In this document: in pieces, positions 22,417-40,649 of the stretch
How positions within the stretch are numbered: position 1 is the stretch's first letter
Layout: each line of letters begins with the position of its first letter
Assembly (NCBI RefSeq): GCF_030286045.1
Contig: NZ_CP127390.1
Span: 2,311,482-2,375,481 of the forward strand
Source: Propionimicrobium sp. PCR01-08-3
GTDB taxonomy: Bacteria > Actinomycetota > Actinomycetes > Propionibacteriales > Propionibacteriaceae
Length of the DNA: 64,000 nt
Direction: 5' to 3'
Notes under the pieces: model-generated
The model's input: only the letters and a program-made list of their open reading frames with translations
Database searches by the model: none
What the model was told of the DNA's origin: nothing
Made by a program: the position numbers and the translations under genes

Positions 22417-25143
22417 ATGACTTGGGTCACACCGCTACATGACGTCACGCGTCACGACATCGCCATCGCCGGCGGCAAGGGCGCCAATCTGGGCGAACTC
22501 GTCCGTGCCGGATTCCCGGTTCCCGACGGATTCGTGGTCACCACTACCGCCTACAACACCTTCGTCCGCCGCACCCGCATCGCCGACGAGCTGCGTCCGG
22601 GCATCAAGGGTGCCGAGGCCCGTGCCCTGTTCGAACGGACGATACCGGCCGAGCTCGCCTCGGCTATCGCCGAGGCTTATGCAGGGCTCGGCGACGAAGA
22701 GGACGACAACGTCGTGGTAGCAGTCCGCTCGTCAGCCACCGCGGAAGACCTGGCCGACGCCTCCTTCGCAGGCCAGCAGGACACCTACCTCGGCATCAGC
22801 GGACGCGACCAGGTGGTGGACGCCGTCCGCCGGTGCTGGGCCTCCCTGTGGACCGACCGGGCCATCGCCTACCGCGACAAGGCCGGCATCGACGATGCGG
22901 ACGTGAGCCTCGCCGTGGTGGTGCAGCGTCTGGTGGACGCCGACGCCGCCGGGGTCATGTTCACCGCCAACCCGGCCAATGGACGCCGCACCGAGACCGT
23001 CATCAATGCCGCCTGGGGGCTCGGTGAAGCCGTGGTCTCCGGAGAGGTCACCCCGGACGAACTGGTCGTCGCCGACCATCGCGTCCTTCACCGAACCATC
23101 GCAGACAAGGAAAAACACACCATTCGAGACGATGGCGGCACGCATGCGGAACCCTTGCCCGAGCACCGTCGGCGTGCGTCCGTGCTGAACGATGAGCAGG
23201 CGCTCGCCCTGGTCGACCTCGGACATAGGGTCGAAGAACTGTTCGGAGCACCTCAAGACATCGAATGGGCGCTCGCCGATGGCACCTTCTGGCTCACCCA
23301 GAGCCGTCCTATCACCGCGCTGCCCGAGCCGACCGGGCCGATCCCCACCAGCTGGCCGACAGAGCGCAGCGATGGCATGTATATGCGTGCCTCCATCACC
23401 GAGCAGCTGCCTGATCCGCTCTCCCCGCTGTTCGCGGACCTCGCCCGGCCTGCGGTCACCCATTCTCTGAAGAACGTACTGGACCGCTACTTCGGCTCCG
23501 ATGCTCTGCATGCCGACGACTTCGACTTCCCCACCGTCAACGGCTATGGCTACTACTTTTACAGCACGGCCGGAATGGGCCGAATGATGCGGATGGCACC
23601 CGGGGGCATGAGAACGGTATTCGGCGCCACGAACCTGAACGGCGTCACCCTGTGGCGTGATCGCGGCCTACCCGGATACCGGCATGTGGTGGACGAATGG
23701 TCCGAACGCGATCCGGGCACTCTTGAGGGCGCCGAATTGCTCCGTGGCGCATCGGAGATCACTGCCGCTGGCGCCGAGTATTACACCTATGTGCAGGCCG
23801 TTATTCCGCAGGCGGCGCTGCCCGAGATCGTGTTCACCCGGTTGTACAACGCGCTGGTGCTGGGTCGTCCGAACGTCGACAAGCCGCCGGCGCTGACCTT
23901 CTTATTGGGGTACGAGTCGACGCCGATCCGCGCCGAACGCTCGCTGTATCAATTGGCGACCTGGTGCCGCAAGACTCCCGGAGTTGCCGAGGCGGTGCTT
24001 GCGGACAGGCCAGTGCCACCCGAGCACGCCGACGAGTTCAAGCGCCGATTGGACGAGCACCTGGCCAATTTCGGTCACCTGACCTACAACCTCGATGTCA
24101 TGCAGCCGGTCGCCGCCGATGACCCTGCACCGGTGATGGCCGCCCTCAAGAACGCGGTTTCCGGGCATGCGACCAACCCCGATGCCCGATTGGAGCATCT
24201 GGCATCTGAGCGACACCGGGCCGAGGCCTGGCTCGACCGCAACGTCGGGCCGGTGCGGCGCAAGATGCTGCATAAATGGCTCGAGAAGGCGCACCGGCTG
24301 GGCCCGCTGCGCGAGGATGCGCTCGCCGACATCGGCCTTGGCTGGCCGACCGCTCGCCGGCTGCTGCGCGAACTAGGCAGCAGGCTTGCCGCGGCCTTCG
24401 TGATCGACGACGCGGACGATGTCTTCTGGCTGAGGCTGGACGAGGCCGAGCACGCCGCGGATGCGCTTGATCTGGCGCAATCCACACGGCCTGCCGAAAC
24501 GTCACCGGCCACCGGAAAACCGGATGATGGACAGCCTGACGGCGGCGAGGACACGCAGGCCGAGGCGTCGGCTGCCAAGTCCCGCAAACCTCGTGGCGAC
24601 GAAACGACTCGTCAAGATGAGAGGGCGTGCTCGGCCACGGAACAGACTCCCGATTCAAAGTGGCAAACCGGGGCACCACTGGCGAGAGAAGTCGAACAAC
24701 GCAAGCAGACCTGGCGCGGCCAGCGTCTCGCCCCGCCGCCGGGCTGGCTACCGCAATCGGGCTTCTATTACCGGCTGTTCAAGCGATTCATGCCGAGCAA
24801 CGAGACCGAGCAGACCGGACCGACGTTGAAGGGTCTCGGGGCGAGCTCCGGCCAGGCCACCGGTCCGGCGCGGCTGCTGCTCGGCCCTGAGGACTTCACG
24901 AAGATGCGCCCGGGTGATGTGCTGGTCGCTCCCATCACGACGCCCGCCTACACCCCGTTCTTCGCGATGGCGGCAGCCGTGGTGACCGATGTCGGCGGAC
25001 CGTTGTCGCACAGTTCGATCGTGGCGCGCGAGTACGGCATCCCCGCGGTGCTGGGCACGGGTTCGGCGACCCACCGGATTCACGACGGTGACATCATCAC
25101 CGTCGACGGCGAGCACGGCATCGTCCGGCTGCAAACCTTCTAG
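22417..25143 (+). CDS. PEP synthase / rifampicin phosphotransferase-like enzyme
   Basis: The protein is 908 residues from the ATG at 22,417 (AAAAGGAG seven bases upstream). An N-terminal ATP-grasp/pyruvate-phosphate-dikinase domain has GGKGANLGEL, SSATAEDLADASFAGQQDT and AWGLGEAVVSGEV. A central domain of about 370 residues follows, interrupted by a charged, low-complexity linker near residues 690-760. The C-terminal phosphohistidine domain has GGPLSHSSIVAREYGIP with the swivel His. The three-domain order and size fit rifampicin phosphotransferases as well as PEP synthase paralogues. Substrate is undecided. Confidence 0.8.
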   Translation: MTWVTPLHDVTRHDIAIAGGKGANLGELVRAGFPVPDGFVVTTTAYNTFVRRTRIADELRPGIKGAEARALFERTIPAELASAIAEAYAGLGDEEDDNVVVAVRSSATAEDLADASFAGQQDTYLGISGRDQVVDAVRRCWASLWTDRAIAYRDKAGIDDADVSLAVVVQRLVDADAAGVMFTANPANGRRTETVINAAWGLGEAVVSGEVTPDELVVADHRVLHRTIADKEKHTIRDDGGTHAEPLPEHRRRASVLNDEQALALVDLGHRVEELFGAPQDIEWALADGTFWLTQSRPITALPEPTGPIPTSWPTERSDGMYMRASITEQLPDPLSPLFADLARPAVTHSLKNVLDRYFGSDALHADDFDFPTVNGYGYYFYSTAGMGRMMRMAPGGMRTVFGATNLNGVTLWRDRGLPGYRHVVDEWSERDPGTLEGAELLRGASEITAAGAEYYTYVQAVIPQAALPEIVFTRLYNALVLGRPNVDKPPALTFLLGYESTPIRAERSLYQLATWCRKTPGVAEAVLADRPVPPEHADEFKRRLDEHLANFGHLTYNLDVMQPVAADDPAPVMAALKNAVSGHATNPDARLEHLASERHRAEAWLDRNVGPVRRKMLHKWLEKAHRLGPLREDALADIGLGWPTARRLLRELGSRLAAAFVIDDADDVFWLRLDEAEHAADALDLAQSTRPAETSPATGKPDDGQPDGGEDTQAEASAAKSRKPRGDETTRQDERACSATEQTPDSKWQTGAPLAREVEQRKQTWRGQRLAPPPGWLPQSGFYYRLFKRFMPSNETEQTGPTLKGLGASSGQATGPARLLLGPEDFTKMRPGDVLVAPITTPAYTPFFAMAAAVVTDVGGPLSHSSIVAREYGIPAVLGTGSATHRIHDGDIITVDGEHGIVRLQTF

Positions 25144-25964
25144 CCGATCGCGTACCCCTCGACGGGCCCCTCGGTCGAAGGAACCCAGCCCAGCGCCGGC
25201 GCAACCTGTTCGGCAAAGTTACGCAAGACGGCCAGGTTCGCCTCGACGCCGAGCGTGTTCGGGATGGTCAGCATCAAGGTGTCTGCCGCCGCGATGGCAG
25301 GATCCGCCTTCAGTTGTTCGATCAAGACGTCGGGTTCGGCGGCGTAGGTGCGTCCGAAGGTGGCGTTGCCGCCATCGAGATAGCCGACCTCATCGGACGA
25401 GGTCGCCTGCAGCCCGAACAACTGACGGTCGCGGTCGCTGACCAGCGGGAAGATGGACCGGGAGACCGACACCCGGGGCGTCCAATCGTGACCGGCCTGC
25501 TTCCATGCGGCGCAGTAATGAGAGATCTGCTCGGCCTGTAGTTCACCCAGCGAACTGCCGTCCGCCTCGGAGACCAGCGTCGAACTCATCAGGTTGACGC
25601 CGTCGCGGGCGGCTTGTTCGGCGGTCTTGTTCGTCCCCGAACCCCACCAGATGTGCCGCCTCAAGTCTGGCGATTGCGGGAAGACGGGCAGCGCGATGCC
25701 CGGCTTGTACATCCTGGGATATTGCTCGTCGAGCGGCGCGGACGTTGCGACACCACCTGAGGCCACCGCTGCCAGCAAAAGCTCGAACTTGCTGCGGGCC
25801 ATGTCTGCGCCGTTGGGCGCCTCGGCCTGATAGCCGAAAGCCTTCCAGCCCTGCTCGGCCGGCTCTGGAGATCCGCGGGAGATCCCCAGAGCCACGCGTC
25901 CGTCGGCGATCAGGTCCAGAGACGCGGCCTCTTCGGCCAGGTAGAGCGGGTTCTCGTAGCGCAT
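25140..25964 (-). pseudogene. Luciferase-like monooxygenase, C-terminal 274 residues (split by mobile element)
   Basis: The frame from MRYENPLYLAEEAASLD to the stop at 25,140 is the main body of an LLM-class flavin-dependent oxidoreductase (IADGRVALGISRGSPEP, WWGSGTNKTAEQAARDG). The first strand/helix repeats are missing here and are found in frame at 33,422-33,670, on the other side of the mobile element. Joined at the shared ATG-CGC they give about 354 residues, the usual family length. The ATG at the break has no ribosome site. The stop overlaps the stop of the convergent gene in CTAG. Confidence 0.9.
25957..25964. repeat. Left attachment-site core (direct repeat TAGCGCAT)
   Basis: This is the left copy of the 8-bp repeat flanking the element. 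To its left is the oxidoreductase coding sequence; to its right is element DNA containing GGTTGCAACAC (25,970-25,980), one arm of the inverted repeat seen when the element ends are joined. Confidence 0.75.
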
Positions 25965-26002
25965 ATAGTGGTTGCAACACTCGCTCGCGTAAGCTTGGTT
26001 GC

Positions 26003-27439
26003 ATGGTCGAGCTGGTAGCGCTGAGGAAGACTAACGAGGTGGCGGCGTACGTCCGTGCCTCGATGGACCGCAAGGGCGATCGCTGGACGGTCGAGACCCA
26101 GTTGCGGAAGATCAGGGCGCTGGCCGAGGCCAAGGACTGGGAGGTCGTCGAGGTCTACGACGACAACGCGGTGTCGGCGACGAAGAAGCGCCGGGCTGAC
26201 ACCCGTTGGGCCGAGATGCTAGAAGACGCCAAGGCTGGCCGGTTCTCGATGGTCGTCGCCGTGGACATGGACCGGCTCCTGCGTAGCACGAAGGACCTGA
26301 ACACACTGATCGATCTCGGCCTGCGCGTCGTCACCGTTGACGGCGAGATCGACCTCTCGACGGCGGACGGGGAGTTCCGGGCGACGATGCTCGCCGCTCT
26401 CGCCCGGTTCGAGGCACGACGCAAGGCCGAGCGACAAATCAGGTCGAACGAGCGCCGACGCGCCGAGGGCATCCCCACGTCCACCTGGAAGGCGTTCGGC
26501 TGGACGAGGGACGGCGAGTTGATCGAGGAGGAGGCCGCCGCCGTACGGCGGGCCTTCGATGCGTTCCTCGGCGAGCCGTCCCTGTCGATCCGGCGAATCC
26601 GCGAGGACCTGAACAGCGCCGGTCACTTCACCGCGCGTGGGTCGGAGTTCTCCGTCGATGCTGTGCGCTACCTGCTCGCGAACCCGCTTTACTGTGGCTA
26701 CATCAAGCACTACGCGTCGGGCGAGCTGTACCCGGTTCAGGGCGAGGCGTTCCCGCCCATCGTCGGCGAGCAGACGTGGCGGGCCGCGGTGGCGAAGCTG
26801 GAGGACAACGTGCGGAGGTCGGCGAGGCAGGGGAACCAGCCGAAGTATCTCCTGTCCACGATCGGGCTGTGCGGGAAGTGCGGCGCGACGCTCGTCTCGG
26901 GGACGAACAGCCGCAAGCAGCCGACGTACCGCTGCGGCGAGCAGTTCCATCTCACCCGCCAGCGCGAGCCCGTCGATGCGATGGTCACCGAGGCGGTGCT
27001 CACGCGTCTGTCCTCGGTGGACGTGCACGACCTCGTGATGCCACAGGAGGACGATGGGCCGGATCGCGAGGAGCTGCTGACGGAGCGGAACGCCCTGGTC
27101 GATCGGGTGAAGGAGCTGAGCCCGCTGCTGCGCGACATCCATCAGCCGGTCCTGGAGATAACGGCAGCGATCAACGACGTGAAGGCCCGCATCGACGAGA
27201 TCGACGCGGAGCTGCTCGACCGTTCGGTGTCGGCGGCGGCGAAGCTGCTCGCGGACGTCGAGGAGCCGGTCGGCACCGCGGAGCGCCGCGAGGTGGTCGA
27301 GGCGAAGTGGAAGGTGTTGGACGTGGACCGCCGCCGGATGCTCGTGGACGAGCTGGTGACGGTGACCATCGAGCCCATCACGCCCGGTCACGTGAAATTC
27401 GACCCCGACCTGATTCGGATAGAGCCGCGTCGCGACTGA
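26003..27439 (+). CDS. int: Large serine recombinase (integrase)
   Basis: The protein is 478 residues from the ATG at 26,003, 39 bp inside the left boundary. The N-terminal resolvase domain has AAYVRAS with the nucleophile Ser20, followed by VVAVDMDRLLRS and FEARRKAERQIR. The recombinase domain follows, then a zinc-ribbon (CGKCG ... YRCGEQFHLTR, about residues 291-318) and a coiled-coil region near residues 340-400. This is the standard architecture of phage/ICE large serine integrases, which act at short non-identical att sites. No separate excision factor is obvious, though either small downstream gene could serve. Confidence 0.95.
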   Translation: MVELVALRKTNEVAAYVRASMDRKGDRWTVETQLRKIRALAEAKDWEVVEVYDDNAVSATKKRRADTRWAEMLEDAKAGRFSMVVAVDMDRLLRSTKDLNTLIDLGLRVVTVDGEIDLSTADGEFRATMLAALARFEARRKAERQIRSNERRRAEGIPTSTWKAFGWTRDGELIEEEAAAVRRAFDAFLGEPSLSIRRIREDLNSAGHFTARGSEFSVDAVRYLLANPLYCGYIKHYASGELYPVQGEAFPPIVGEQTWRAAVAKLEDNVRRSARQGNQPKYLLSTIGLCGKCGATLVSGTNSRKQPTYRCGEQFHLTRQREPVDAMVTEAVLTRLSSVDVHDLVMPQEDDGPDREELLTERNALVDRVKELSPLLRDIHQPVLEITAAINDVKARIDEIDAELLDRSVSAAAKLLADVEEPVGTAERREVVEAKWKVLDVDRRRMLVDELVTVTIEPITPGHVKFDPDLIRIEPRRD

Positions 27440-27444
27440 CTCAT

Positions 27445-27480
27445 GAGTCGACTCGTCATTGCAATGGTGAGTCGACTCGT
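27445..27480. promoter_or_regulatory. Two copies of palindrome GAGTCGACTC, possible operator
   Basis: GAGTCGACTCGT occurs at 27,445-27,456 and again at 27,469-27,480, a 24-bp period. The inner ten bases are a perfect palindrome in each copy. The pair sits just after the integrase stop and about 140 bp before the next gene. Spacing of just over two helical turns puts both on one face of the DNA. A repressor or origin-binding site is possible; no protein can be assigned. Confidence 0.4.
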
Positions 27481-27620
27481 GGGAGAATGGTTGCAGACAA
27501 GAAGATCCCACCGGGGCCGCGACTTAGAAGCGCGGGGTTCTGCTCCCGGATGAGTAGCCGGTCAAACAGCCCAATTACCGTGGCGGGGAACCGGAAGATA
27601 CTCATGTCTGAGGACTTCCG

Positions 27621-27833
27621 ATGTCTGTCGTTATCGACGTTCCCCGCGCATCCGCGCTCGACCGCCCTGGCCTCGATCAGGGCTCCACTCCTTCTCCGCA
27701 GGCAGACGGCCTCGATCCCGTCATCGCCGCCGCTCGTGCTGCTGGTCGTCTGGCCGGTGAACGCCTGGCTCGCACGCCCCTGACCCCGCGACAGCGCGCC
27801 GCGGTCGCCGCCGTGATGGGTGGTGGTCACTGA
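27621..27833 (+). CDS. Small element protein, unknown
   Basis: A 70-residue protein, Ala/Arg/Pro-rich, ending in TPRQRAAVAAVMGGGH. GAGGA lies about six bases before the ATG, and its TGA overlaps the next ATG (TGATG), so it belongs to the element operon. No domain is recognised. Confidence 0.5.
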   Translation: MSVVIDVPRASALDRPGLDQGSTPSPQADGLDPVIAAARAAGRLAGERLARTPLTPRQRAAVAAVMGGGH

Positions 27834-28087
27834 TGAGCGCCAACTCCGCCGCCTTCGACCACGTGAACGGCTTCCGCTGGCGACAGGGCGACCCCTCCCT
27901 CGCCGAGTCCGAGGCACGTCTCTACGACCTCGGCGTGCTCCGCTCCGTGCTGGAGGAGTCCGTCGAGATCGCCGTCGCCGACGCCCGCGCCGAAGGCGTG
28001 ACCTGGGCGAAGATCGGCGACGCCCTCGGCGTCACGCATCAGGCCGTCATCAAGCGCTACCGCAAGGCGGTGGTCGCTGATGCGTGA
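27833..28087 (+). CDS. Small helix-turn-helix protein
   Basis: The 84-residue protein ends in a short helix-turn-helix: TWAKIGDALGVTHQAVIKRY (about residues 57-76). The N-terminal half is helical and acidic. It overlaps the upstream gene by TGATG. Its position between integrase and the origin-like region suggests a regulator of the element or a recombination directionality factor; neither is shown. Confidence 0.65.
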   Translation: MSANSAAFDHVNGFRWRQGDPSLAESEARLYDLGVLRSVLEESVEIAVADARAEGVTWAKIGDALGVTHQAVIKRYRKAVVADA

Positions 28088-28404
28088 TCGCATGCCCCGC
28101 TCCACCACCCTGACCCCCAACCGAGTGCGCGCAGCGCACGAGGGCGGGTGCCTCCAGTGTGTCGTTCCCTCGAAGAGTTCCCGGACTCTTGCTACCAGAT
28201 GGCGCGCAGCGTGTGTTCCTACGCGCGGGGGCTCAAGCTTGCCGATAGCCCCCCGTGCTACAACGTGCCTGGTCAGCAGGGGTTTCAGAGCCGTTCCGCG
28301 AGGCGTTTCGACGCCCGTCGCAGCGGCTTCAGCAGTGCTTCTGACGCGCGCCATGACGCGCGCCATTTGAGGCGCCGCCCTCGTAATGGCGCGCACTCCG
28401 GGCG
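28088..28404. other. Gene-poor, repeat-rich segment before rep: origin candidate
   Basis: No convincing gene fills this 317-bp stretch; the open frames present look like out-of-frame reading. It holds four copies of GCGCGCCAT in either orientation: ATGGCGCGC at 28,199-28,207 and 28,386-28,394, and two direct copies inside the tandem 12-mer GACGCGCGCCAT at 28,343-28,366. Repeats directly upstream of a rolling-circle Rep gene suit a double-strand origin with Rep-binding sites. This assignment is inference. Confidence 0.45.
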
Positions 28405-29883
28405 GTGGTCGCGGTGAGCGCTGCACAGAAGAAGACGAGCGGTCCCAGTGGTCGCAAGCCGTCGGCGTATGTGACGTTCACGCAGCAGCTCAAGCCGGAG
28501 TTCTGGCCGGGCTGGGACGTGGCCCTGATCCTCTCGAGCGATGTGCGAGCGATCGGCGAGGAGATCCTGCGCCGCTACGCGGTCGCGGGAGGCGACTGCC
28601 AGGGGTTCTGGATCATCAAGCACGACAAGGACGTGCTGGCGGACGGGTGCCCCAAGGACGATCACGTGCACGTGGTGATTCAGCAGAGCCCCGGGCGCAA
28701 GGTCGAGGGCAAGCTCCAGTGCACCGCGATGGATCAGGTGTTCGGGTTCGGCGACAAGAGCGTCGTCAAGGGTCCGCCCCGCGGCGGCCGGATCGAGAAC
28801 GCATGGTCGTACCTGATCCACGCGAAGGACCCGGACAAGCACCAGTACGGCGTCGAGGAGGTCGTCACCCTCCGCGGGAAGGACTACGCCGAGATCGAGG
28901 CCGAGCACCGCGACGCCTGGGCTCGCCGCGCCGTGATCGGCCGTAAGGCCGCGGTCCCGATGAAGGAGTGGAACGAGCTGGGCGACACGCTCGTGCAGAA
29001 GGTGCTCGACGGTGAGGTCGATGAGCTGGACATCCTGAGGGACAAGACCCTGATGGACATCTACACGCGCAACGAGGCCAAGGTGAACCTGGCGCTGAAG
29101 AACCGCGCCAAGCGCGAGATGCTGTTCGAGGTCGAGAAGCTCCGGGCGGGGGTCTTCCAGAAGACGGTCATCTGGGCGATGGGCGCGAGCGATCAGGGCA
29201 AGAGCTACCTTGTCGAGTCGGTCGCCGCAGAGCTGTCGGCGCGGCTGGGCTGGCCGGTCTTCCGCGCCACGGCGAAGAACGGTCCGGACGCTTACAACGG
29301 CGAGCCGATCTTCATGATGAACGAGCCCAGCTCGCGAGTCATGGAGTGGGCCGACTTCCTCCAGCTGCTCGATCCTCGGCAGGGCGGGCCGATCTCGGCG
29401 CGCTACTACAACAAGCCGGACGCGGCCCCGCGCCTGATCCTCATCGCGGTGTCGGTCGATCCGGTCGAGTTCGGGTTCTTCATCCCGGGGAAGCGCTCGA
29501 CGGGCGATTCCCTCGACCAGGTCGTGCGTCGCATCACGTTGATGATCGAGGCTCGGAAGATCGACGGCGAGCCGCACTACTCGGTCAGCCGGGTCGGTGA
29601 GGTCGAGCCGTACAAGCGCACCATCTGGCTCCCGGGTGCGGACCGGAACGGGAACGTGAACCGGGAGACGGTGTGGCTTGGCTACGACAAGGCCGAGACT
29701 GACGCCGAGTTGACGCACGCCGAGACGTTGGACGTGGTGCTCGATGCCGTCGCGGTTCGGTCGCCGGATACGGGGCTCGTGACCTCTGCGCAGCGTCGCC
29801 TCGACGACAGCACCGCGGCGCTGGCCGCGCGCGGCGTCGTCTTCAGCGCGCCGCCGGTGCCGCTCGCGGGAGGTGCGGCATGA
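28405..29883 (+). CDS. rep: Rolling-circle Rep protein: HUH nuclease plus superfamily-3-like helicase
   Basis: The protein is 492 residues. The N-terminal nuclease domain has motif I (SAYVTFTQQLKPEFW), motif II DDHVHVVIQ at about residues 85-93 with the HUH pair, and motif III AWSYLIHAKD near residue 134 with the nicking Tyr, as in pMV158/Rep_2 proteins. A P-loop follows (MGASDQGKSYL, about residue 258), with EPIFMMNEP as Walker B and LILIAVSVDP as a motif-C-like strand, which is a superfamily-3 helicase layout. Combined HUH-S3H Reps drive rolling-circle replication. Start is GTG, with a second in-frame GTG three codons later. The stop overlaps the next start. Confidence 0.88.
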   Translation: MVAVSAAQKKTSGPSGRKPSAYVTFTQQLKPEFWPGWDVALILSSDVRAIGEEILRRYAVAGGDCQGFWIIKHDKDVLADGCPKDDHVHVVIQQSPGRKVEGKLQCTAMDQVFGFGDKSVVKGPPRGGRIENAWSYLIHAKDPDKHQYGVEEVVTLRGKDYAEIEAEHRDAWARRAVIGRKAAVPMKEWNELGDTLVQKVLDGEVDELDILRDKTLMDIYTRNEAKVNLALKNRAKREMLFEVEKLRAGVFQKTVIWAMGASDQGKSYLVESVAAELSARLGWPVFRATAKNGPDAYNGEPIFMMNEPSSRVMEWADFLQLLDPRQGGPISARYYNKPDAAPRLILIAVSVDPVEFGFFIPGKRSTGDSLDQVVRRITLMIEARKIDGEPHYSVSRVGEVEPYKRTIWLPGADRNGNVNRETVWLGYDKAETDAELTHAETLDVVLDAVAVRSPDTGLVTSAQRRLDDSTAALAARGVVFSAPPVPLAGGAA

Positions 29884-30470
29884 GCACCGATCAGCACTCG
29901 CTCTCCCCGGGGGTCGAGGGGGCCGGAGGCCCCTCGCAAGCAGCCGGGGAGGACATGAGCGTCAGCGAAATGTCCGACACGGCTACTGCTTGCCACTTTG
30001 GCGTACAGGTGGAGCAGCAGGCCGACTCCCAGGTGAACACTGGTCGGGCTGATGCGGAGGCTGTGCGGCAGAGTCACGGCGGCGCGGAGCGTCGTCGTGG
30101 CAGCGGCGGGCGGCTCGATACCCGCTTCGATGACGCCACGCTCGGGGCGCTTCGCACTCGTGCGAAGCGGCTCGGGCTGGCTCCGAGCACGTGGGTGCGG
30201 AGCGTCGTGCGCGATGCCCTGCACGCCGCTCGGAGCGAGGAGCTGGACGCCGCCGTGGCCGCACACCTGCTCGGGGTCGAGACGCGCGTGCAGGCCTCGG
30301 CGGACACCCGCGAGCTGGCCGCGCAGGTGCGTCCGCTGGCGATCAACGTCAACGACCTGGACCGCCGCGCGCGGGCCGGTGAGGCGGTGTCGCTGTCGGC
30401 GGACGTGCCCGAGCTGATCGAGCTGCTGCGCGAGGTCCGCGCTCTGCTCGGGGATCGGACGGCATCGTGA
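29880..30470 (+). CDS. mobC: MobC-like relaxosome accessory protein
   Basis: The 196-residue protein has a disordered N-terminal 80 residues and then a ribbon-helix-helix-like segment (RLDTRFDDATLGALRTRAKR then GLAPSTWVRSVVRDAL) and a helical tail ending near LIELLREVRALLG, a pattern found in plasmid mobilization proteins of the MobC group. Its ATG overlaps the rep stop (ATGA) and its stop overlaps the relaxase GTG. It probably binds oriT and recruits the relaxase. Confidence 0.7.
   Translation: MSTDQHSLSPGVEGAGGPSQAAGEDMSVSEMSDTATACHFGVQVEQQADSQVNTGRADAEAVRQSHGGAERRRGSGGRLDTRFDDATLGALRTRAKRLGLAPSTWVRSVVRDALHAARSEELDAAVAAHLLGVETRVQASADTRELAAQVRPLAINVNDLDRRARAGEAVSLSADVPELIELLREVRALLGDRTAS
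29903..29951. repeat. Nested inverted repeats at the start of mobC, oriT candidate
   Basis: An outer pair CTCCCCGG (29,903-29,910) and CCGGGGAG (29,944-29,951) encloses an inner hairpin GGGGCC-GGA-GGCCCC (29,919-29,933). The structure lies inside the first codons of the MobC-like gene. Relaxase nick regions are often next to such repeats and beside mobC, so it may mark oriT; an mRNA control hairpin is the alternative. Confidence 0.35.
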
Positions 30471-31753
30471 GCACCACGCACTACAGCCCGAGCACGAGCG
30501 CCGCGGACACGGAGCGCTACATCCGTGGCAAGGAGGACGAGCGCGGGGTCGCGGTCACGTGCGACGTGCCGGGCGGCCCGGGTGCGTTCTCGGCGCGTGC
30601 CCGCGCGCTCACGCAGAACACGAAGCGCGATATCGAAGCCCTCCACTACCGGCAGAGCTTCAGCGACGAGGAGTTCGACCCGAAGAACCCGGAGGACGTG
30701 CAGCGGGTGAACGATCTGGGCTACCTGCTGGCGAAGAGGATGCACCCGGACTCGGACTGCCTCGTGGTCACCCACACCGATGGTCGCGGCGGCAAGCCGC
30801 ACAACCACATCTTGGTCATCAACCACAACAACCGCACCGGGAAGGCGCTCTCGGACTACCGCACGTTCCACGACCGCAAGGCCGGGAACCAGCGGGGCGT
30901 GCAGTCGGCGAACGACGACCTGATGCGCGAGCACGGCCTCTCGGTCGTGAAGCGGCTGGAGCACGCGCCGAAGGACTGGGAGCTGCGCCGCGAGGACTTC
31001 GCCGAGGGAGGGCTCGACCGCGAGATGGGCGACCGGATGAGCGCCGCCCTGGCTGATCCCCGTGCGGTGGACAGGGCCGGTCTCGAAGCGGTGATCGCGG
31101 AGCAGAACCAGCAGCTCGGCGACGACGACGAGCGGGTGCCGCGGATGCGCCTGCACACCGCCGTGAGCAAGCGGGGCAAGAACGTCGGCAAGGAGACGTG
31201 GACTCTCTACATCGAGGACCGCCGCGGCGAGTCCGGGCGTGCCGAGCGCCGTAAGCGCACGAGCGCCCTCTCGGCGGACTTCACCCCGGAGGGCGCGCAG
31301 GCGTTCTTCGACTACCACCAGCACCAGAAGGAGCAGGACTATGAGCGCAGCACTCGACAGGCTGAAGCAGCAGAACGCGCAGGACGAGCAGCGGCAGCAG
31401 CTCGGCAGTCCGGAGACGATGGAGGTGTTGACCTCGATCCTCGCCGCCGTCGAGGCGCAGACCGCGAGGCTCGACCGGGTGGCCGAGCAGCAGAAGAGGC
31501 TCGCGGGGTTCGTGAAGGTCATGGACGAGGAGACGACCAGGCGGCTGGAGCGGATCACGGCCCCGGCGTCGACCTCCTCGCCCTCCAGCGACGTGTCCGC
31601 GAGGATCGCGAGTATCGAGAGCAGGCAGAACGAGATCGCGAGCACGCTCGGCGAGTTCGCGCAGAGTCTCAACGGCGAGAGGCTGAACGCCGCGTCGCGG
31701 GCCTTGGTCGCGGAGGCGCAGAGGAGTCACGCGGCTACGGCCTCGGCTGTTGA
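30467..31753 (+). CDS. mobA: Relaxase (mobilization nuclease)
   Basis: This 428-residue frame begins at GTG overlapping the mobC stop. The N-terminal 290 residues look like a relaxase: TERYIRGKE near residue 15 as the Tyr motif, and the metal-binding triad region GKPHNHILVINHNNRTG near residues 106-122. The remaining ~135 residues lie entirely within the overlap with the next gene and are Arg/Gly/Glu-rich, as expected of a secondary reading frame. It should nick oriT and pilot the strand during mobilization by a helper conjugation system. Confidence 0.85.
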   Translation: MSTTHYSPSTSAADTERYIRGKEDERGVAVTCDVPGGPGAFSARARALTQNTKRDIEALHYRQSFSDEEFDPKNPEDVQRVNDLGYLLAKRMHPDSDCLVVTHTDGRGGKPHNHILVINHNNRTGKALSDYRTFHDRKAGNQRGVQSANDDLMREHGLSVVKRLEHAPKDWELRREDFAEGGLDREMGDRMSAALADPRAVDRAGLEAVIAEQNQQLGDDDERVPRMRLHTAVSKRGKNVGKETWTLYIEDRRGESGRAERRKRTSALSADFTPEGAQAFFDYHQHQKEQDYERSTRQAEAAERAGRAAAAARQSGDDGGVDLDPRRRRGADREARPGGRAAEEARGVREGHGRGDDQAAGADHGPGVDLLALQRRVREDREYREQAERDREHARRVRAESQRREAERRVAGLGRGGAEESRGYGLGC

Positions 31754-32246
31754 GGGGCTGAAGGAGCAGGCCGATGCGAACCAGAAGCTCGTCAGCCAGG
31801 TCGGCGGCGCGGTGCAACGGATCGAGAAGCGCACCGAGGAGCGGGTCAAGAAGGCCGTCGAGCAGGTCGCCGGGGAGGCTTCGTCCGTGATGACCGCGAA
31901 CCTCGACGCGTCGAACGAGCGGGCCGAGCGGATCATCGCCGCCACCGCGAGGCTGGAGGCCCGGCAGCTGTGGTCGGCCGCCGCCGCGATGTGCCTCGCC
32001 CTCCTGCCGGTGGTCGTGGTCGTCGCCGGGCTCTGGATGGGGATCGCTGGGCTCATCACGGGCGCTCAGTGGGCGCTGGACGTGGACGGGAGCGTGTGGC
32101 TCGGCGTCGGGCGCTGGCTCGTGGTCGCCGTGGGCCTCGCTGGGGCCGGCTACGGGCTCTTCGCGTCCGTCCGGTGGGCCGCCGGTCTCGTGGAGACGTG
32201 GAGGGGTCGTGGGATGCCGACGTGGCCGAGCTGGCGCAAGCGGTGA
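31341..32246 (+). CDS. Coiled-coil protein with C-terminal membrane segments (MobB-like)
   Basis: The protein is 301 residues from the ATG at 31,341, which has AAGGAG about nine bases upstream. Residues 1-215 are Gln/Glu/Arg/Ala-rich coiled coil. Two hydrophobic segments follow (about 216-240 and 252-278). The first 413 bp overlap the relaxase 3' end in another frame. Nested genes of this type, with a coiled-coil plus membrane tail, resemble mobB within mobA of ColE1-type plasmids, where MobB stabilises the relaxosome and links it to the membrane. The assignment is by analogy. Confidence 0.7.
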   Translation: MSAALDRLKQQNAQDEQRQQLGSPETMEVLTSILAAVEAQTARLDRVAEQQKRLAGFVKVMDEETTRRLERITAPASTSSPSSDVSARIASIESRQNEIASTLGEFAQSLNGERLNAASRALVAEAQRSHAATASAVEGLKEQADANQKLVSQVGGAVQRIEKRTEERVKKAVEQVAGEASSVMTANLDASNERAERIIAATARLEARQLWSAAAAMCLALLPVVVVVAGLWMGIAGLITGAQWALDVDGSVWLGVGRWLVVAVGLAGAGYGLFASVRWAAGLVETWRGRGMPTWPSWRKR

Positions 32247-32305
32247 CCACGCCTCCCGAGGGCAAGGGCGCGGAGCGCGTGCGGCAGCCCGCACAAATGG
32301 ACGAG

Positions 32306-32343
32306 TAGTCAGCTAGCACTGTATAGTCATCGTATGCTGACTA
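32306..32343. promoter_or_regulatory. Inverted repeat TAGTCAGC/GCTGACTA, candidate CmtR operator
   Basis: TAGTCAGC at 32,306-32,313 is matched by GCTGACTA at 32,336-32,343, the second arm overlapping the cmtR start codon. The 22-bp spacer is AT-rich and contains TATAGT, a possible -10. Binding by the encoded ArsR-type repressor would block its own operon. Confidence 0.5.
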
Positions 32344-32693
32344 TTGCTTCACGCCTCGACGTCATGAACCGGCTCGGCCGCGCCATGGCCGACCCGACGC
32401 GTTCCCGGATCCTGATGACCCTCCTCGGCGGCCCGAGCTACCCGGCCGTGCTCTCGCGCGAGCTGGAGCTGACCCGCTCGAACGTGTCCAACCACCTGAC
32501 CTGCCTGCGCGATTGCGGGATCGTCGTCGCCGAGCCCGAGGGCCGCCAGACGCGCTACGAGATCGCCGACCCGCACCTCGCCGCGGCGCTGACGTCCCTG
32601 ATCGACGTCACGCTCGCGGTGGACGAGGACGCGCCGTGCATCGACCCGGCATGCTCGGTGCCGGGCTGCTGTGGAACGGCGGTGGGAGCATGA
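32334..32693 (+). CDS. cmtR: CmtR-type ArsR/SmtB metal-responsive repressor (Cd/Pb)
   Basis: The 119-residue winged-helix protein has the recognition helix LTRSNVSNHLTCLRDCGIV. Cys57, Cys61 and Cys102 fall at exactly the positions of the three Cd(II)/Pb(II) ligands of mycobacterial CmtR, and the surrounding sequence is close to CmtR. The tail has three further Cys (107, 112, 113) not part of that site. It is expected to repress the operon until cadmium or lead binds. Its stop overlaps the start of the cation permease (ATGA). Confidence 0.9.
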   Translation: MLTIASRLDVMNRLGRAMADPTRSRILMTLLGGPSYPAVLSRELELTRSNVSNHLTCLRDCGIVVAEPEGRQTRYEIADPHLAAALTSLIDVTLAVDEDAPCIDPACSVPGCCGTAVGA

Positions 32694-33340
32694 GCGAGAC
32701 CCTGACCACCGCGCGCCGCGCGACGCTGCACCGGCGCGTCCGCTTCATCGTCGGCTTCACGATCACGTACAACGTGATCGAGGCGATCGTCGCAGTCTGG
32801 ACGGGCGTCCTCGCCTCGTCCGCGGCGCTCATCGGCTTCGGCCTCGACTCGGTCGTCGAGGTACTCTCGGCCGCGGCCATCGCCTGGCAGTTCACCCGCA
32901 AGGACCCTGAGCGGTGGGAGACGGTCACCGTCAAGGCCATCGGCATCGCGTTCTTCGCGCTGGCGGCCTACGTCTCGATCGACGCGGTGCTGGCCCTGGT
33001 CGGCCAGGAGGGCCCCGACCACAGCCCGCTGGGCCTCGGCATCACCGCGCTGAGCCTGGTCGTCATGCCTCTGCTGGCGTGGATCGAGGTCCGCACCGGG
33101 CGGGAGCTGGGCTCCAAGAGCGTGATGGCCGACGCCAAGCAGCTCATCCTGTGCATCTACCTCTCCGGTGCAGTGTTCATCGGCCTCGTCCTCAACAGCC
33201 TGTTCGGCTGGTGGTGGGCTGACTCGGTCACGGCGCTGGTCGTGGCGGTGCTCGCGGTGCGCGAGGGCCTGGAGGCCTGGCGCGGCGACGTCGAGTCGCC
33301 GTTCGAAGTGCTAGAGGACCTCGAAGACGAGGACGACTGA
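32690..33340 (+). CDS. Cation-efflux membrane protein, CDF-like, CmtR-controlled
   Basis: The protein is 216 residues from the ATG that overlaps the cmtR stop. It has about five to six hydrophobic segments and acidic/His-poor metal motifs such as GFGLDSVVEVLSA and WWWADSVTALVVAVLA, the D-x-x-x-E/D pattern of cation diffusion facilitators. No long cytoplasmic C-terminal domain is present; the tail is acidic (EDLEDEDD). Together with CmtR it is the likely Cd/Pb/Zn export cargo of the element. Confidence 0.82.
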   Translation: MSETLTTARRATLHRRVRFIVGFTITYNVIEAIVAVWTGVLASSAALIGFGLDSVVEVLSAAAIAWQFTRKDPERWETVTVKAIGIAFFALAAYVSIDAVLALVGQEGPDHSPLGLGITALSLVVMPLLAWIEVRTGRELGSKSVMADAKQLILCIYLSGAVFIGLVLNSLFGWWWADSVTALVVAVLAVREGLEAWRGDVESPFEVLEDLEDEDD

Positions 33341-33350
33341 CCCGTCACCC

Positions 33351-33393
33351 GACGATGAAGAGCCAGGAGGCAGCCTCCGGGCTCTTCATCGTC
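33351..33393. terminator. Long perfect hairpin at the element right end
   Basis: GACGATGAAGAGCC (33,351-33,364) pairs perfectly with GGCTCTTCATCGTC (33,380-33,393), and inside it GGAGG pairs with CCTCC around a CAG loop. It follows the last element gene by 10 bp and lies before the right boundary. No T-run follows, as is common for high-GC terminators; it may work on both strands and shield the flanking gene. Confidence 0.7.
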
Positions 33394-33421
33394 AGAGCCA
33401 GTGCTGCAACCCAGACATGTG

Positions 33422-33670
33422 CTAGCGCATGTCGATGACGCCCGTGCCCACCTCGATCCGCTTGGTGGTCGCCGCGATGGCGGCCAGCAGCGGTATCGGC
33501 GACGAGCCCTGCGGCGCGAAATGGTGGACGCGGAAGTAGGCGCCGTTGACACCGATCTGGTCGGCGAAACGGGCCAGCTCGATGGCCTGGTGCAGGGTCG
33601 CGCGCGCGTCCGGGCCCTGCTGTCCGGGAAGTGCGTAGTGGCCGAAGCTCAGGAATCCGAAGGCCTTCAT
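33422..33670 (-). pseudogene. Luciferase-like monooxygenase, N-terminal 82 residues (split by mobile element)
   Basis: The frame starts MKAFGFLSFGHYALPG and shows the first TIM-barrel elements of an LLM flavin oxidoreductase (FADQIGVNGAYFRVHHFAPQ, then KRIEVGTGVIDMR). It ends at TAG created where element DNA begins, right after ATG-CGC. The rest continues in frame at 25,964. The promoter-proximal part is retained, so a short useless peptide may be made while the element is integrated. Confidence 0.9.
33423..33430. repeat. Right attachment-site core (direct repeat TAGCGCAT)
   Basis: This is the right copy of the 8-bp core. Element DNA to its left has GTGCTGCAACC (33,401-33,411), which is a near-perfect inverted match of GGTTGCAACAC inside the left end. 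To its right is the remaining 5' part of the split oxidoreductase gene. Confidence 0.75.
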
Positions 33671-37330: not shown

Positions 37331-37756
37331 TTACTCCGAGGGATGGGGTTTCAAGAATTCATCGGTGCTTACGACTCGCAAGCCACCCGCACTCACGAAG
37401 CGGGCATCATCGGTCACGATGGCATCAAAACCGGCCTCCAGCGCGGTCGCTGCTAGTACAGCATCGCGACCTCCGATGGGCGAATCAGCCATCAGCTCGA
37501 TCGCACGCCGAGCGATGGCTTCGTCGAATGGGTGGATAGTCACCGAATCAACAAGGTCCCGCCCCATAGCGATCGCGCTCTCCCGCTGTCCGATCCGCAT
37601 TCGGTGGAATACAAACTCTTGAACTGTCTCTGCGCCAATATGTACGACGAGGTCGTCCGCGATCCTCGTCAGTAGAGTTCGGGCGGCATCACGCATCGGG
37701 TGTTCACCGCCCACGGCGTGCAGCAACACCGAGGTATCAACAAAGGCAGCGATCAT
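37331..37756 (-). CDS. vapC: VapC-type PIN-domain ribonuclease toxin
   Basis: The 141-residue PIN protein has the first catalytic Asp in AAFVDTSVLLHA (residue 7), a Glu in GAETVQEFVFH, and later acidic positions in GGRDAVLAATAL and IVTDDARF. The acidic quartet supports an active Mg-dependent RNase. It overlaps the antitoxin gene by ATGA and is convergent with the unknown gene at 36,180. Confidence 0.88.
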   Translation of the reverse strand: MIAAFVDTSVLLHAVGGEHPMRDAARTLLTRIADDLVVHIGAETVQEFVFHRMRIGQRESAIAMGRDLVDSVTIHPFDEAIARRAIELMADSPIGGRDAVLAATALEAGFDAIVTDDARFVSAGGLRVVSTDEFLKPHPSE

Positions 37757-38031
37757 GAGAACCGCTCGATCAATTCATTCTCCATTGCCTCACGGGTCTT
37801 GGCCCATGCGCGGTCGTCAAGATCAGGGGCTTCACCGGAAGGGTCGTGCCCCAGCAACCGGCCGACTGCTTGTATCCGCAGATCCTGGTCAGGAGGAAAA
37901 GCCAGATCGATCGCATCTCTTACGACGGACGCAACACTGCCGCCCCGCCGCTCGGCCTCCGCTGCGATCCGCTGGTATCGCTGCTCATCCAGAAGAATCT
38001 GGAGTCTGCGCTCCAAGGTCGACATGCACAT
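37753..38031 (-). CDS. vapB: VapB-type antitoxin
   Basis: The 92-residue protein starts MCMSTLERRLQILLDEQRYQ, an N-terminal ribbon-helix-helix region (to about residue 45), followed by an acidic tail that would wrap the toxin. A second ATG two codons in (38,025) is an alternative start. A 9-bp inverted repeat covers the start codon, which fits autorepression by the VapBC complex. Confidence 0.82.
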   Translation of the reverse strand: MCMSTLERRLQILLDEQRYQRIAAEAERRGGSVASVVRDAIDLAFPPDQDLRIQAVGRLLGHDPSGEAPDLDDRAWAKTREAMENELIERFS

Positions 38032-38048
38032 ACATTAGCATGTGCATG
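38023..38048. promoter_or_regulatory. Operator of the vapBC pair
   Basis: CATGCACAT at 38,023-38,031 is perfectly inverted as ATGTGCATG at 38,040-38,048 with an eight-base spacer. The left arm includes both possible start codons of the antitoxin, so binding would block both transcription and initiation. Confidence 0.65.
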
Positions 38049-38552
38049 CGTCTCACTCAGAGCTTGTGCTCCTACAAGGGACCTCGCTCTCATGGCGTCT
38101 GACAGCAACTCTGGCCAGTCGATTCGACTTGACTTCTAAGACATAGTTTGAAACCGTGACGAACATAGCAAAGTTGCAAATCTGCACAGGAGAACCCCAA
38201 ATGTTGTGTAGCAGTGGAAAATATGCTAGTCCGGACGTCGATTGCTCGGCTTATCTAGCACTCAGAGCACAGTTCATTCTCCCCTTGTTCCAGTAGGATC
38301 AACAGTAACAGCGACATCATGTGGGAGTGCTGACTCGCTATCAGCGTAGCTTAGGCGACCACACCTATCGACAACCATCGAGTATTTTAATGTCGATTTG
38401 CATCCCCTCAAGACAAACTCGCTTGGCCCTATTTATTACATGCCGAGTTGCAGATTCAACTACCCCGCCAACGAACAGTGCCGCTCACCCCTTACATCGG
38501 AAGCGCGGTGCGCTCCGCATGAAAACACAACCCGGAGATTCCGATATTTCTA
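38049..38552. other. AT-richer stretch without a recognisable gene
   Basis: About 500 bp before the secreted peptide gene contain no convincing coding frame. The base composition is clearly lower in GC than the surrounding chromosome and stays so to about 39,650, a sign of recent acquisition. I see no repeat array or RNA gene in it. Confidence 0.5.
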
Positions 38553-38582
38553 TTGACATCGCGTTGCCGATGTGTTTACGGT
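38553..38582 (+). promoter_or_regulatory. Promoter of the secreted peptide gene
   Basis: TTGACA at 38,553-38,558, an 18-base spacer and TACGGT at 38,577-38,582 form a good sigma-70-type promoter. The gene starts 44 bp downstream. Confidence 0.55.
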
Positions 38583-38626
38583 GATAGCACCTCAACGAAA
38601 CCCCGACGGAAGTGAGGTAAACAAAG

Positions 38627-39256
38627 ATGTTTCGCAAGCTACTGACCACTATTGTTGGTGTCACAGCGACATTTGCTATAAGTATCACTTATGTCGCCCC
38701 GTCTCAGGCCAAGGAGTTGGCGCCCAATTGGGGGGGCCAAAGCGAGGAAGCAGTAGTTCTAGAGGAGAACCTAGAAGCCACTTATCCTTACATCTCAGAT
38801 CAAGTATTGAACCTTCCAGCCGCTGAAAAAACTATTGAAGACAGCACCTTCCTCTATGATTTCGCCGAAGGCTACTATTACGGCGGCGGCGACGTAGCCG
38901 CTGATCCGGAGGTCGTTTCTGACATAGATGCGAACGTTCAGCGGTACGTTACAGACGAGATCTCCCCTCAAGGCTGCGCAGGTACATCAGGCTTCGAGCC
39001 AGTTCCGCCGACCGTGTACCTAACCTCTTGTCAAGCAGCGAACGTCATGGCGGTCGTCGCTGCAGGCGGCTCCGCAGCCACCATTGCTGGCGTCATAGCG
39101 GCTTCGTCAGGAATCGGCGCTCCCGCGGCCGCGGTTATCGGTGCGGCACTTGCAGCCAGCGGTGGCCTGCTTGGAGCATGCACTGCCCCTGGAACTGGAA
39201 TTGTAGTAAAGGTTCAGAACCCTGTGATTCCTGTCCCGACCTGCAGTGCCCAGTGA
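38627..39256 (+). CDS. Secreted protein with Ala/Gly-rich hydrophobic, Cys-flanked C-terminal domain: possible bacteriocin precursor
   Basis: The protein is 209 residues. A signal peptide ends in S-Q-A-K near residue 29. Residues 30-115 are acidic and Tyr-rich, like a propeptide. The C-terminal 90 residues start after a Cys-Ala-Gly, carry a 55-residue Ala/Gly/Ile hydrophobic stretch (AAVIGAALAASGGLLGAC) and contain four Cys in total. This leader-acidic-hydrophobic plan recalls secreted pore-forming peptides, and the next gene could be its immunity protein. GTGAGG lies upstream of the ATG. Function is inferred from architecture only; a surface-protein role is possible. Confidence 0.55.
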   Translation: MFRKLLTTIVGVTATFAISITYVAPSQAKELAPNWGGQSEEAVVLEENLEATYPYISDQVLNLPAAEKTIEDSTFLYDFAEGYYYGGGDVAADPEVVSDIDANVQRYVTDEISPQGCAGTSGFEPVPPTVYLTSCQAANVMAVVAAGGSAATIAGVIAASSGIGAPAAAVIGAALAASGGLLGACTAPGTGIVVKVQNPVIPVPTCSAQ

Positions 39257-39285
39257 TCTGTGTGGCGCAACAGATTGGAAACGCT

Positions 39286-39489
39286 ATGACTTTTCGAGAT
39301 CCGCTAGTAATAACGGGCCTAATCTTCGGCATTGCCGGGCTCGTCTGCGCGATTCTAGGATTCCTTAACGCAACGGCAGAAGATAACGGACGACCGTTCT
39401 TAACTATTGCGATCTCACTTAACTTGGTCGCCCTCATTTGCTTGCTTGTGAAAATCACTCGAAACCAAAAGGGCCGCCCAGTACAGTAA
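39286..39489 (+). CDS. Small two-helix membrane protein, possible immunity protein
   Basis: The 67-residue protein has two hydrophobic helices (about residues 7-27 and 38-56) and a basic C-terminus (KITRNQKGR). It begins 29 bp after the secreted peptide gene and ends before a strong terminator, so the two form one transcript. Size and layout fit bacteriocin immunity proteins, but no sequence family is recognised. Confidence 0.5.
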   Translation: MTFRDPLVITGLIFGIAGLVCAILGFLNATAEDNGRPFLTIAISLNLVALICLLVKITRNQKGRPVQ

Positions 39490-39517
39490 GTGGCAGCTTT
39501 TCCCGCCCATTCTACCT

Positions 39518-39553
39518 GAGTGGTTGTCCTGGAACATGCCAGGACAACCACTC
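39518..39553. terminator. Strong terminator after the peptide/membrane gene pair
   Basis: GAGTGGTTGTCCTGG (39,518-39,532) pairs perfectly with CCAGGACAACCACTC (39,539-39,553) around a six-base loop. It closes the plus-strand unit and faces the minus-strand ygfZ-like gene. Confidence 0.8.
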
Positions 39554-39716
39554 ACCCCCTAACCCGGCATTTTTGACGCTATGCTCAGCGTCAGCTTCTA
39601 CAACTAAACGTCAAATAGATAAGCTGAAAAGCAGAGGATTGCACCATTTCAAGGCCCGAGTTGCTGGCGTTGAAAAGCTTGAGGCAAATCCACTTTTCAT
39701 GTATCTGCGAGGCCAA

Positions 39717-40649
39717 TCACAACTTCGGGCGGAAGTGCTCCCCCACTTCGGGATCGACGAGCGCTTCTTGGGCCGCCGCGATACCGTCCGCCACCAGATC
39801 GACATCGGTATCCACCGAGCGTTTCACCAGGCCCAACCCGATCGGGCCGAGCTCGTGATGCTGGGCAACGGTGCCGACTCGTCCGATCACCCGGTCATTG
39901 AGAGTGATCTCGGAACCAGGATCGGGCAGCTCACCGTCGAACAGCAATCGCACCAGCCGGCGCGGCGGACGACCTAGGGTCTGAATACGCGCCACCGTCT
40001 CCTGGCCCGGATAGCACCCCTTGTCAAGTGCTGTTCCGAAGAGCCCGATTTCGTTCGGGATCGCCTTGCCATCGGTGTCTAGGCCAATTCGGGGAATGCC
40101 TGCGTCAATGCGTAACGCCTCATGGGCCCACAGTCCGGCCTCGTCGACACCACCAAATTCATAGCCGGCGGGCAGCACGACCTCGGCCCCATCAGCAACA
40201 CCCGAGGACCGCAGGGCAAGAACCGCCCCCGGCACCGCGATCTGGCTGCCCAGCCAGTACACCTGCAAGTCTTCGCGGGCCACCAGGTCGACAGCCGTCC
40301 AGAACTTCATCGATGCCAGCCAGCCGAGCAATTCCTCGCGTGCCCCGGGCTCGGTCCAGCACCATGCGGTGGTTCCGTCGTCCACCAGGCAGAAGGCGCG
40401 AGTGATGTGCCCGTTTGCCTCCAGCACCAGCACGTCGCGTCCTTCACCTGCCGGCAGAGATTCCAAGTCCTGCGAGGCCAAGGTATGCAACCACTTCAGT
40501 CGCTCATCGCCGGTGATGGTGAACACTTCCCGGTTCGACAACCGCACCACGCCAAAGCCGGATTCCATCATCCGCTGCTCGGCGAATGGCTCGCCGAAAT
40601 GCCAGGCCATGCCCCGATCGGGCCCGTCTTCGACTTCGATGCGAGTCAT
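39717..40649 (-). CDS. ygfZ: YgfZ/GcvT-family folate-binding protein
   Basis: The protein is 310 residues from the ATG at 40,649, which overlaps the nitrobindin-like gene stop by ATGA; upstream codons in the same frame are not protein-like. It shows the YgfZ signature KGCYPGQETVAR near residue 232, with the conserved Cys, and an N-terminal GcvT-like fold (VFTITGDERLKWLHTLAS). YgfZ-like proteins bind tetrahydrofolate and support iron-sulfur enzyme maturation. Confidence 0.9.
   Translation of the reverse strand: MTRIEVEDGPDRGMAWHFGEPFAEQRMMESGFGVVRLSNREVFTITGDERLKWLHTLASQDLESLPAGEGRDVLVLEANGHITRAFCLVDDGTTAWCWTEPGAREELLGWLASMKFWTAVDLVAREDLQVYWLGSQIAVPGAVLALRSSGVADGAEVVLPAGYEFGGVDEAGLWAHEALRIDAGIPRIGLDTDGKAIPNEIGLFGTALDKGCYPGQETVARIQTLGRPPRRLVRLLFDGELPDPGSEITLNDRVIGRVGTVAQHHELGPIGLGLVKRSVDTDVDLVADGIAAAQEALVDPEVGEHFRPKL

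Follow-up and report, generated by a model that had tools for sequence, protein, structure and literature searches.

The window analysed here is a stretch of 64,000 nucleotides from Propionimicrobium sp. PCR01-08-3 (contig NZ_CP127390.1, positions 2,311,482 to 2,375,481), in which a 7,466-bp element splits a gene for an oxidoreductase of the luciferase-like monooxygenase (LLM) class. The element belongs to a family without a name that is spread over the Actinomycetota and is of an established type, the integrative mobilizable elements (IMEs) with a serine integrase. Judging from the sequences compared, it is very likely that the integrase of this family joins the attP site of the element to a conserved attB site in the LLM gene in either orientation.

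Target gene and crossover site

One scan of genome contigs with the integrase returned 52 further loci, at 91-99% identity (the 91% being a partial match). Their host genera include Actinomyces, Arachnia, Schaalia, Brevibacterium, Gordonia, Kocuria, Rothia, Corynebacterium, Tessaracoccus, Microbacterium, Janibacter and Nakamurella, and the named rows of the integrase tree span 14 families. One half or the other of the same LLM gene lay at the border of the element in 49 of the 53 loci (the window plus these 52); hence, the association is not due to chance. The four loci without such a half are L074 and L103, both of which end near the element, and L098 and L106. These results bear out a preliminary description of the window, which had proposed a complete, site-specifically integrated element inside an LLM gene.

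The two minus-strand pieces of the LLM gene, which that description had taken as in-frame halves of one gene, form a single frame of 355 codons when joined, with one stop, at its end. An intact gene in relatives, one of the checks it had suggested, was found in two genomes of the same genus (G005 and G007), and the joined gene aligned to both without gaps at 87.5% identity over 353 residues. An intact orthologue in a third genome of the genus (G004; 81%) likewise gave a gapless alignment. As in the window, the LLM gene adjoins typA in four of the six same-genus genomes fetched (G002, G004, G005 and G007). Uninterrupted loci, chosen from homology matches to the host LLM gene, were aligned through the insertion site at 20 loci in 19 genomes (L010 and L051 being one locus). 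The insertion point is the Tyr codon of a VIDMRYENP-like motif. The host gene and the ends of the element are placed as follows.

25140 to 25956, minus strand: host LLM oxidoreductase, C-terminal part (PF00296; 88% identity to the intact orthologues in G005 and G007)
25957 to 25958, no strand: crossover dinucleotide TA at attL (repeat copies and junction comparison)
25959 to 33424, plus strand: whole element (junction comparison)
25959 to 25982, plus strand: attP right arm, 24 bp adjoining TA (inverted repeat of the left arm)
33399 to 33422, plus strand: attP left arm, 24 bp adjoining TA (inverted repeat of the right arm)
33423 to 33424, no strand: crossover dinucleotide TA at attR (repeat copies and junction comparison)
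33425 to 33670, minus strand: host LLM oxidoreductase, N-terminal part (84% identity to the intact orthologues in L046 and L047; joined frame)

The preliminary description had placed a complete element at 25957-33430, with TAGCGCAT at both joints. The element is complete and both copies of TAGCGCAT are present (25957-25964 and 33423-33430), but the boundaries could be narrowed to 25959-33424, or 25957-33422 on the alternative reading of TA, and the site common to element and host is 2 bp rather than 8 bp long. Among homologous elements (42 attR and 43 attL junctions), TA alone was common to both sides, which implies that strand exchange occurs within TA. The remaining six bases of TAGCGCAT match because the arms of the element resemble the target.

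At each junction, the bases adjoining TA followed the host on one side and the element on the other. The 42 attR positions were placed by protein alignment, with TA not imposed. When the integrase lies beside the 3' part of the LLM gene, as in the window (orientation A), the base before TA at attL was G in 18 and A in 9 of 27 loci (host Tyr codon), and the base after it G in 20 and C in 7 (element side); at attR, the base before TA was C in 26 of 26 (element side) and the base after it G in 18, C in five, A in two and T in one (host Arg codon). In the opposite orientation (B), the base before TA at attL was C in 7, T in 5 and G in 4 of 16 loci (host side), followed after TA by G in 15 and C in one (element side), and at attR a C stood on both sides of TA in all 16. 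These comparisons indicate that the crossover is the palindromic dinucleotide TA.

The attP arms of the window element are inverted repeats at 17 of 24 positions, a value reached by none of 2000 shuffles. Inverted-repeat arms occurred in each of the eight elements examined, matching at 12-17 of 24 positions (shuffled means about 6), with 0 to 8 of 2000 shuffles as high. A 2-bp crossover between inverted-repeat att sites, a hallmark of large serine integrases, is thus present. An asymmetric crossover dinucleotide that fixes orientation is usual, though not universal, among these enzymes; in this family the dinucleotide is TA, and both orientations occur.

Some loci deviate from this arrangement. 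At L065 (Kocuria carniphila; left junction at 9955), one end of the element lies within the LLM gene and the opposite end within the frame of a repeat protein, as if a rearrangement or a secondary site were involved. In Schaalia odontolytica (L100, 8549-10831) and two strains of Actinomyces oris (L104 and L105, 8864-10426), an intact LLM gene abuts the element, whose integrase is truncated and at whose far end an extra LLM half is left; it seems that the host regained its gene while the element was stranded.

Both orientations and how they may arise

The left junction could be classified in 43 of the 53 loci (27 A, 16 B), and the addition of L043 brings the classified loci to 44 (28 A, 16 B). 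Not counted were L065, L074, L098, L100, L103, L104, L105 and L106, nor L102 (B-type flanks, integrase start not found) and L099 (A-type right end). Wherever both ends could be read they agreed (24 A/A, 12 B/B and none mixed). Near-identical elements (99.7-99.95% over 8.6-9.1 kb) face opposite ways in hosts of different families, as do L062 (Gulosibacter, B) and L064 (Tessaracoccus, A) at 99.95% identity, L081 (Glutamicibacter, B) and L101 (Janibacter, A) at 99.86%, and L077 (Bowdeniella, A) and L080 (Nigerium, B) at 99.70%. On the integrase tree, 13 changes of orientation are required (at least 11 by starred branches), compared with a shuffled mean of 12.7; 353 of the 500 shuffles required no more than that. 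Orientation is thus unrelated to phylogeny.

We propose that the attP of the circular form, imperfectly palindromic about TA, is recombined by the integrase with the single conserved attB. Since TA is its own reverse complement, the two sites could be joined in parallel or antiparallel alignment, and the element would then enter in either orientation and split the gene either way. When the att sites of the A118 integrase were mutated to symmetric cores, both deletion and inversion were obtained, inversion amounting to 35.5% in one of the reported cases and to 47.5% in the other (PMC3556126). Because such sites recombine in both alignments, a palindromic core is a sufficient cause of both orientations. 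Natural orientation-blindness would accordingly be the unusual property of this family, and it fits the symmetric TA core. Together with an element-coded directionality factor, perhaps one of the two small proteins listed below, the integrase would also excise the element, restore the gene and form the circle.

Alternatively, the element might integrate in one direction and be inverted later in place, by antiparallel recombination of attL with attR through the integrase and a directionality factor. With a TA core, inversion and reverse integration yield the same sequence, so that junction and identity data cannot separate them. For other serine integrases, however, PMC3783163 describes the antiparallel attL x attR arrangement of domains as different from the productive parallel one, whereas attP and attB synapse either way; we consider later inversion unlikely as the source of both orientations. 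There is a similarly small chance that an orientation-blind integrase flips the integrated element as well, by the same antiparallel attL x attR reaction. If so, the element would be an invertible IME, whose two states alter what is read into the split LLM gene and the cargo.

A fixed, immobile remnant, with the shared site inherited vertically from an old insertion, would agree with the truncated or interrupted integrases of some relatives (L100, L104, L105 and L043). Yet 99.7-99.95% identity is seen between elements of different families, where the LLM genes themselves share no more than about 50-70% identity with that of the window; empty sites exist in same-genus genomes, and the genes of the window element are intact. 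This explanation is very improbable.

Gene content, modularity and mobility

The gene order is serine integrase, 70-aa protein, helix-turn-helix (HTH) protein, Rep, ribbon-helix-helix (RHH)/MobC-like protein, relaxase, coiled-coil protein, CmtR and cation diffusion facilitator (CDF) exporter. The preliminary description had named a serine integrase, Rep, Mob proteins and metal-resistance cargo; hidden Markov model (HMM) searches confirmed the integrase, the Rep and the relaxase, and, as cargo, the metal regulator and the CDF transporter.

26003 to 27439, plus strand: large serine integrase, 478 aa (PF00239 and PF07508 above cut-off; PHROG integrase)
27440 to 27620, plus strand: conserved stretch between genes, containing inverted repeats; putative control region or origin of transfer (oriT) (alignable in 13 of 14 loci, not L085)
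27621 to 27833, plus strand: 70-aa protein of no family, candidate directionality factor (67-100% identity in homologous loci)
27833 to 28087, plus strand: 84-aa HTH protein, candidate regulator or directionality factor (weak PF13384 below cut-off; PHROG HTH)
28405 to 29883, plus strand: Rep with origin-binding/HUH-type domain, helicase domain and YLIH motif (PF01719 and PF00910 above cut-off; motif by reading)
29880 to 30470, plus strand: 196-aa protein, RHH/MobC-like by eye (74-92% identity in homologous loci; no HMM match)
30467 to 31753, plus strand: relaxase, MobA/VirD2 nuclease domain (PF03432 above cut-off)
31341 to 32246, plus strand: coiled-coil protein containing hydrophobic stretches (413 bp shared with the relaxase gene, read in a different frame)
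32334 to 32693, plus strand: CmtR-type Cd(II)/Pb(II) sensor (NF047906 above cut-off)
32690 to 33340, plus strand: CDF cation exporter (PF01545 above cut-off)
33349 to 33395, no strand: strong hairpin between cargo and attR, likely a terminator (read from sequence)

The integrase has the resolvase (PF00239) and recombinase (PF07508) domains typical of large serine integrases. Its zinc ribbon (PF13408) scored 18.1 bits, below the cut-off of 25.3, and a PDB search with the integrase gave five matches, among them domains of TP901-1 and A118. An earlier start at TTG 25745 was rejected, as it lies inside the host gene and homologous matches start at the residue of ATG 26003. The 70-aa protein had no match in HMM or PHROG searches, and Rep had none in a PDB search. 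Three Rfam matches, including miRNA matches at the hairpin, all fell below the gathering score and were taken as chance; no tRNA gene was found in the window.

Variation in 39 loci was used to examine the overlap of the relaxase and coiled-coil genes. Variable sites by codon position numbered 55, 58 and 51 (of 137, 137 and 136) within the overlap, versus 64, 51 and 114 (of 164, 164 and 165) in the coiled-coil gene outside it, and the relaxase-frame stop lay at an identical offset in 31 of the 39 loci. With no third-position excess and a conserved stop offset, both frames look constrained.

Comparison of the loci indicates that the Rep, relaxase and cargo slots are modular. The Rep slot, whose neighbouring genes are otherwise similar, was occupied by at least four classes: that of the window (86-98% identity in L076, L085, L086 and L090), a commoner type with 31-32% identity to the window Rep, a 740-750-aa type and a 773-aa type. 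PF00910 was detected in every class but the 773-aa one, which had no Pfam match, and PF01719 in two classes; a YLxH motif was present in the Rep of all 10 loci printed. In L077, L079 and L080, a different protein precedes the coiled-coil gene, that of L077 being a Mob_Pre relaxase. The cargo slot adjoins attR. Its contents include CmtR with a cadmium-type P-ATPase (tested in L055), a CDF exporter (window, L072 and L079), mercuric reductase (tested in L071) and efflux genes of the major facilitator superfamily (L073, nearest to LmrA but below cut-off, and L090). Metal export by the window element is predicted from its cargo. In Brevibacterium, the RHH-like, relaxase and coiled-coil genes of L095 (13844-19551) are present twice, the second set being diverged, and the locus looks like two fused elements.

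The element shows two hallmarks of an IME: it is integrated site-specifically with its own integrase, and it carries a relaxase but no complete conjugation apparatus among the genes scanned. No other transfer gene besides the PF03432 relaxase was found among the element genes scanned by HMM. Of 263 relaxase homologues on plasmids, 240 were on records typed mobilizable. The relaxase thus suggests that the element can be mobilized. The excised circle would be copied by the HUH-helicase Rep and nicked by the relaxase with the RHH-like protein, for transfer via the conjugation machinery of another element. A possible helper is a single VirD4/TraG-type coupling protein match (PF02534) in the same genome (L115; G000:C1:736576-737754).

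The helicase Rep could instead be the transfer relaxase itself, of a non-canonical type, with the PF03432 protein as an accessory; a table footnote in PMC5704250 lists Rep_2-helicase proteins as putative non-canonical relaxases of IMEs. However, a canonical relaxase is also present, and L077 pairs a helicase-type Rep with another canonical type, Mob_Pre, which suggests a division of labour. This alternative is distinctly unlikely.

Several observations weigh against integration in either orientation by a mobilizable element. The TA at the 43 attL junctions was picked by a script that sought TA near the expected place, so that the attL counts are not independent. The left flank is other than the LLM gene in L065 (where the LLM 3' half is present on the right side), L098 and L106. 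The 28:16 ratio leans to orientation A, non-significantly (p 0.096) yet not exactly 1:1. No excised circle and no within-strain empty site were seen, and PF12846, one VirB4-type ATPase family, had no match in the genome of the strain. For transfer, the oriT is a candidate stretch only and the conjugation helper only a possible one.

A free plasmid parent was sought and not found. With the whole element, plasmid BLAST matched 108 records, and in the 30 of these that were listed the match was to the CmtR/transporter end; the DNA from Rep to the coiled-coil gene had no match. Homologues of the integrase occurred in 123 plasmid and 723 phage records, all below 60% identity (best among the matches listed, 31.9% for plasmids and 33.5% for phages). 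Rep had no match in phages. A phage origin is unsupported, because phage homologues of the integrase were all below 60% identity and a scan of viral contigs with it gave no relative. Elsewhere in the window, positions 37500-39999 have a G+C content of about 0.51-0.57, versus 0.60-0.70 elsewhere, with few long open reading frames, and are possibly a separate acquired stretch.

Distribution and comparison with known systems

Within the bacterial family to which the window belongs, the integrase was matched in eight of 198 genomes (E <= 1e-100), and in an even sample of the phylum in two of 396 (E <= 1e-70), the genome of the window included in both; the other integrase in the phylum sample was 45% identical, and no LLM gene was present in the 4.4 kb around it. 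Given these counts and the many genera, the family is wide but not common. Our search, with most subscription papers outside it, found no published account of the family or of a natural palindromic core. With this family, the reason why asymmetric cores prevail among serine integrases can be put directly to the test. Its integrase is also a natural enzyme whose target in actinobacteria is very conserved, and its loci let one follow how metal- and drug-efflux cargo gathers at a single insertion site across genera.

The preliminary description had considered protein-coding genes less common targets than tRNA genes; since intragenic sites are described as usual for serine integrases in PMC5704250 and PMC10083194, this type of target is not remarkable as such. 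The Firmicutes IMEs with serine integrases treated in PMC5704250 (IME_SpnAP200_rumA, Tn6104) share with the present element a serine integrase, an intragenic site and replication genes, and other IMEs listed there carry relaxases, as it does. They differ in phylum, target and replication genes (replisome organizer/DnaC), and the passages on them do not mention orientation-blindness. IME2287 of Rhodococcus equi, as outlined in PMC10669575, is likewise actinobacterial, called an IME, and equipped with a serine recombinase and replication genes, but it has no predicted conjugation genes, ParA/RepA/RepB-type replication, and other termini and cargo.

Tn5252-type integrative conjugative elements of Streptococcus suis, reported in PMC7168690 to insert in a luciferase-like monooxygenase gene, share the broad target class. 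They are conjugative and from another phylum, and the likeness drawn here is at the level of gene class. Integrated pCRESS elements, as characterized in PMC6668415, resemble the present element in a Rep with nuclease and helicase domains, the YLxH motif and site-specific integration. The window Rep has these pCRESS YLxH hallmarks (PF01719, PF00910 and YLIH), and is likened to the YLxH supergroup by domains and motif.

A parallel in mechanism is the symmetric core of A118, where symmetric core bases likewise gave recombination in either alignment, as described for those mutants in PMC3556126. That core is a laboratory mutation of the native GG, whereas the symmetric core of the present family is natural. 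Laboratory-made symmetric cores abolish orientation control, and a widespread natural family appears to keep one.

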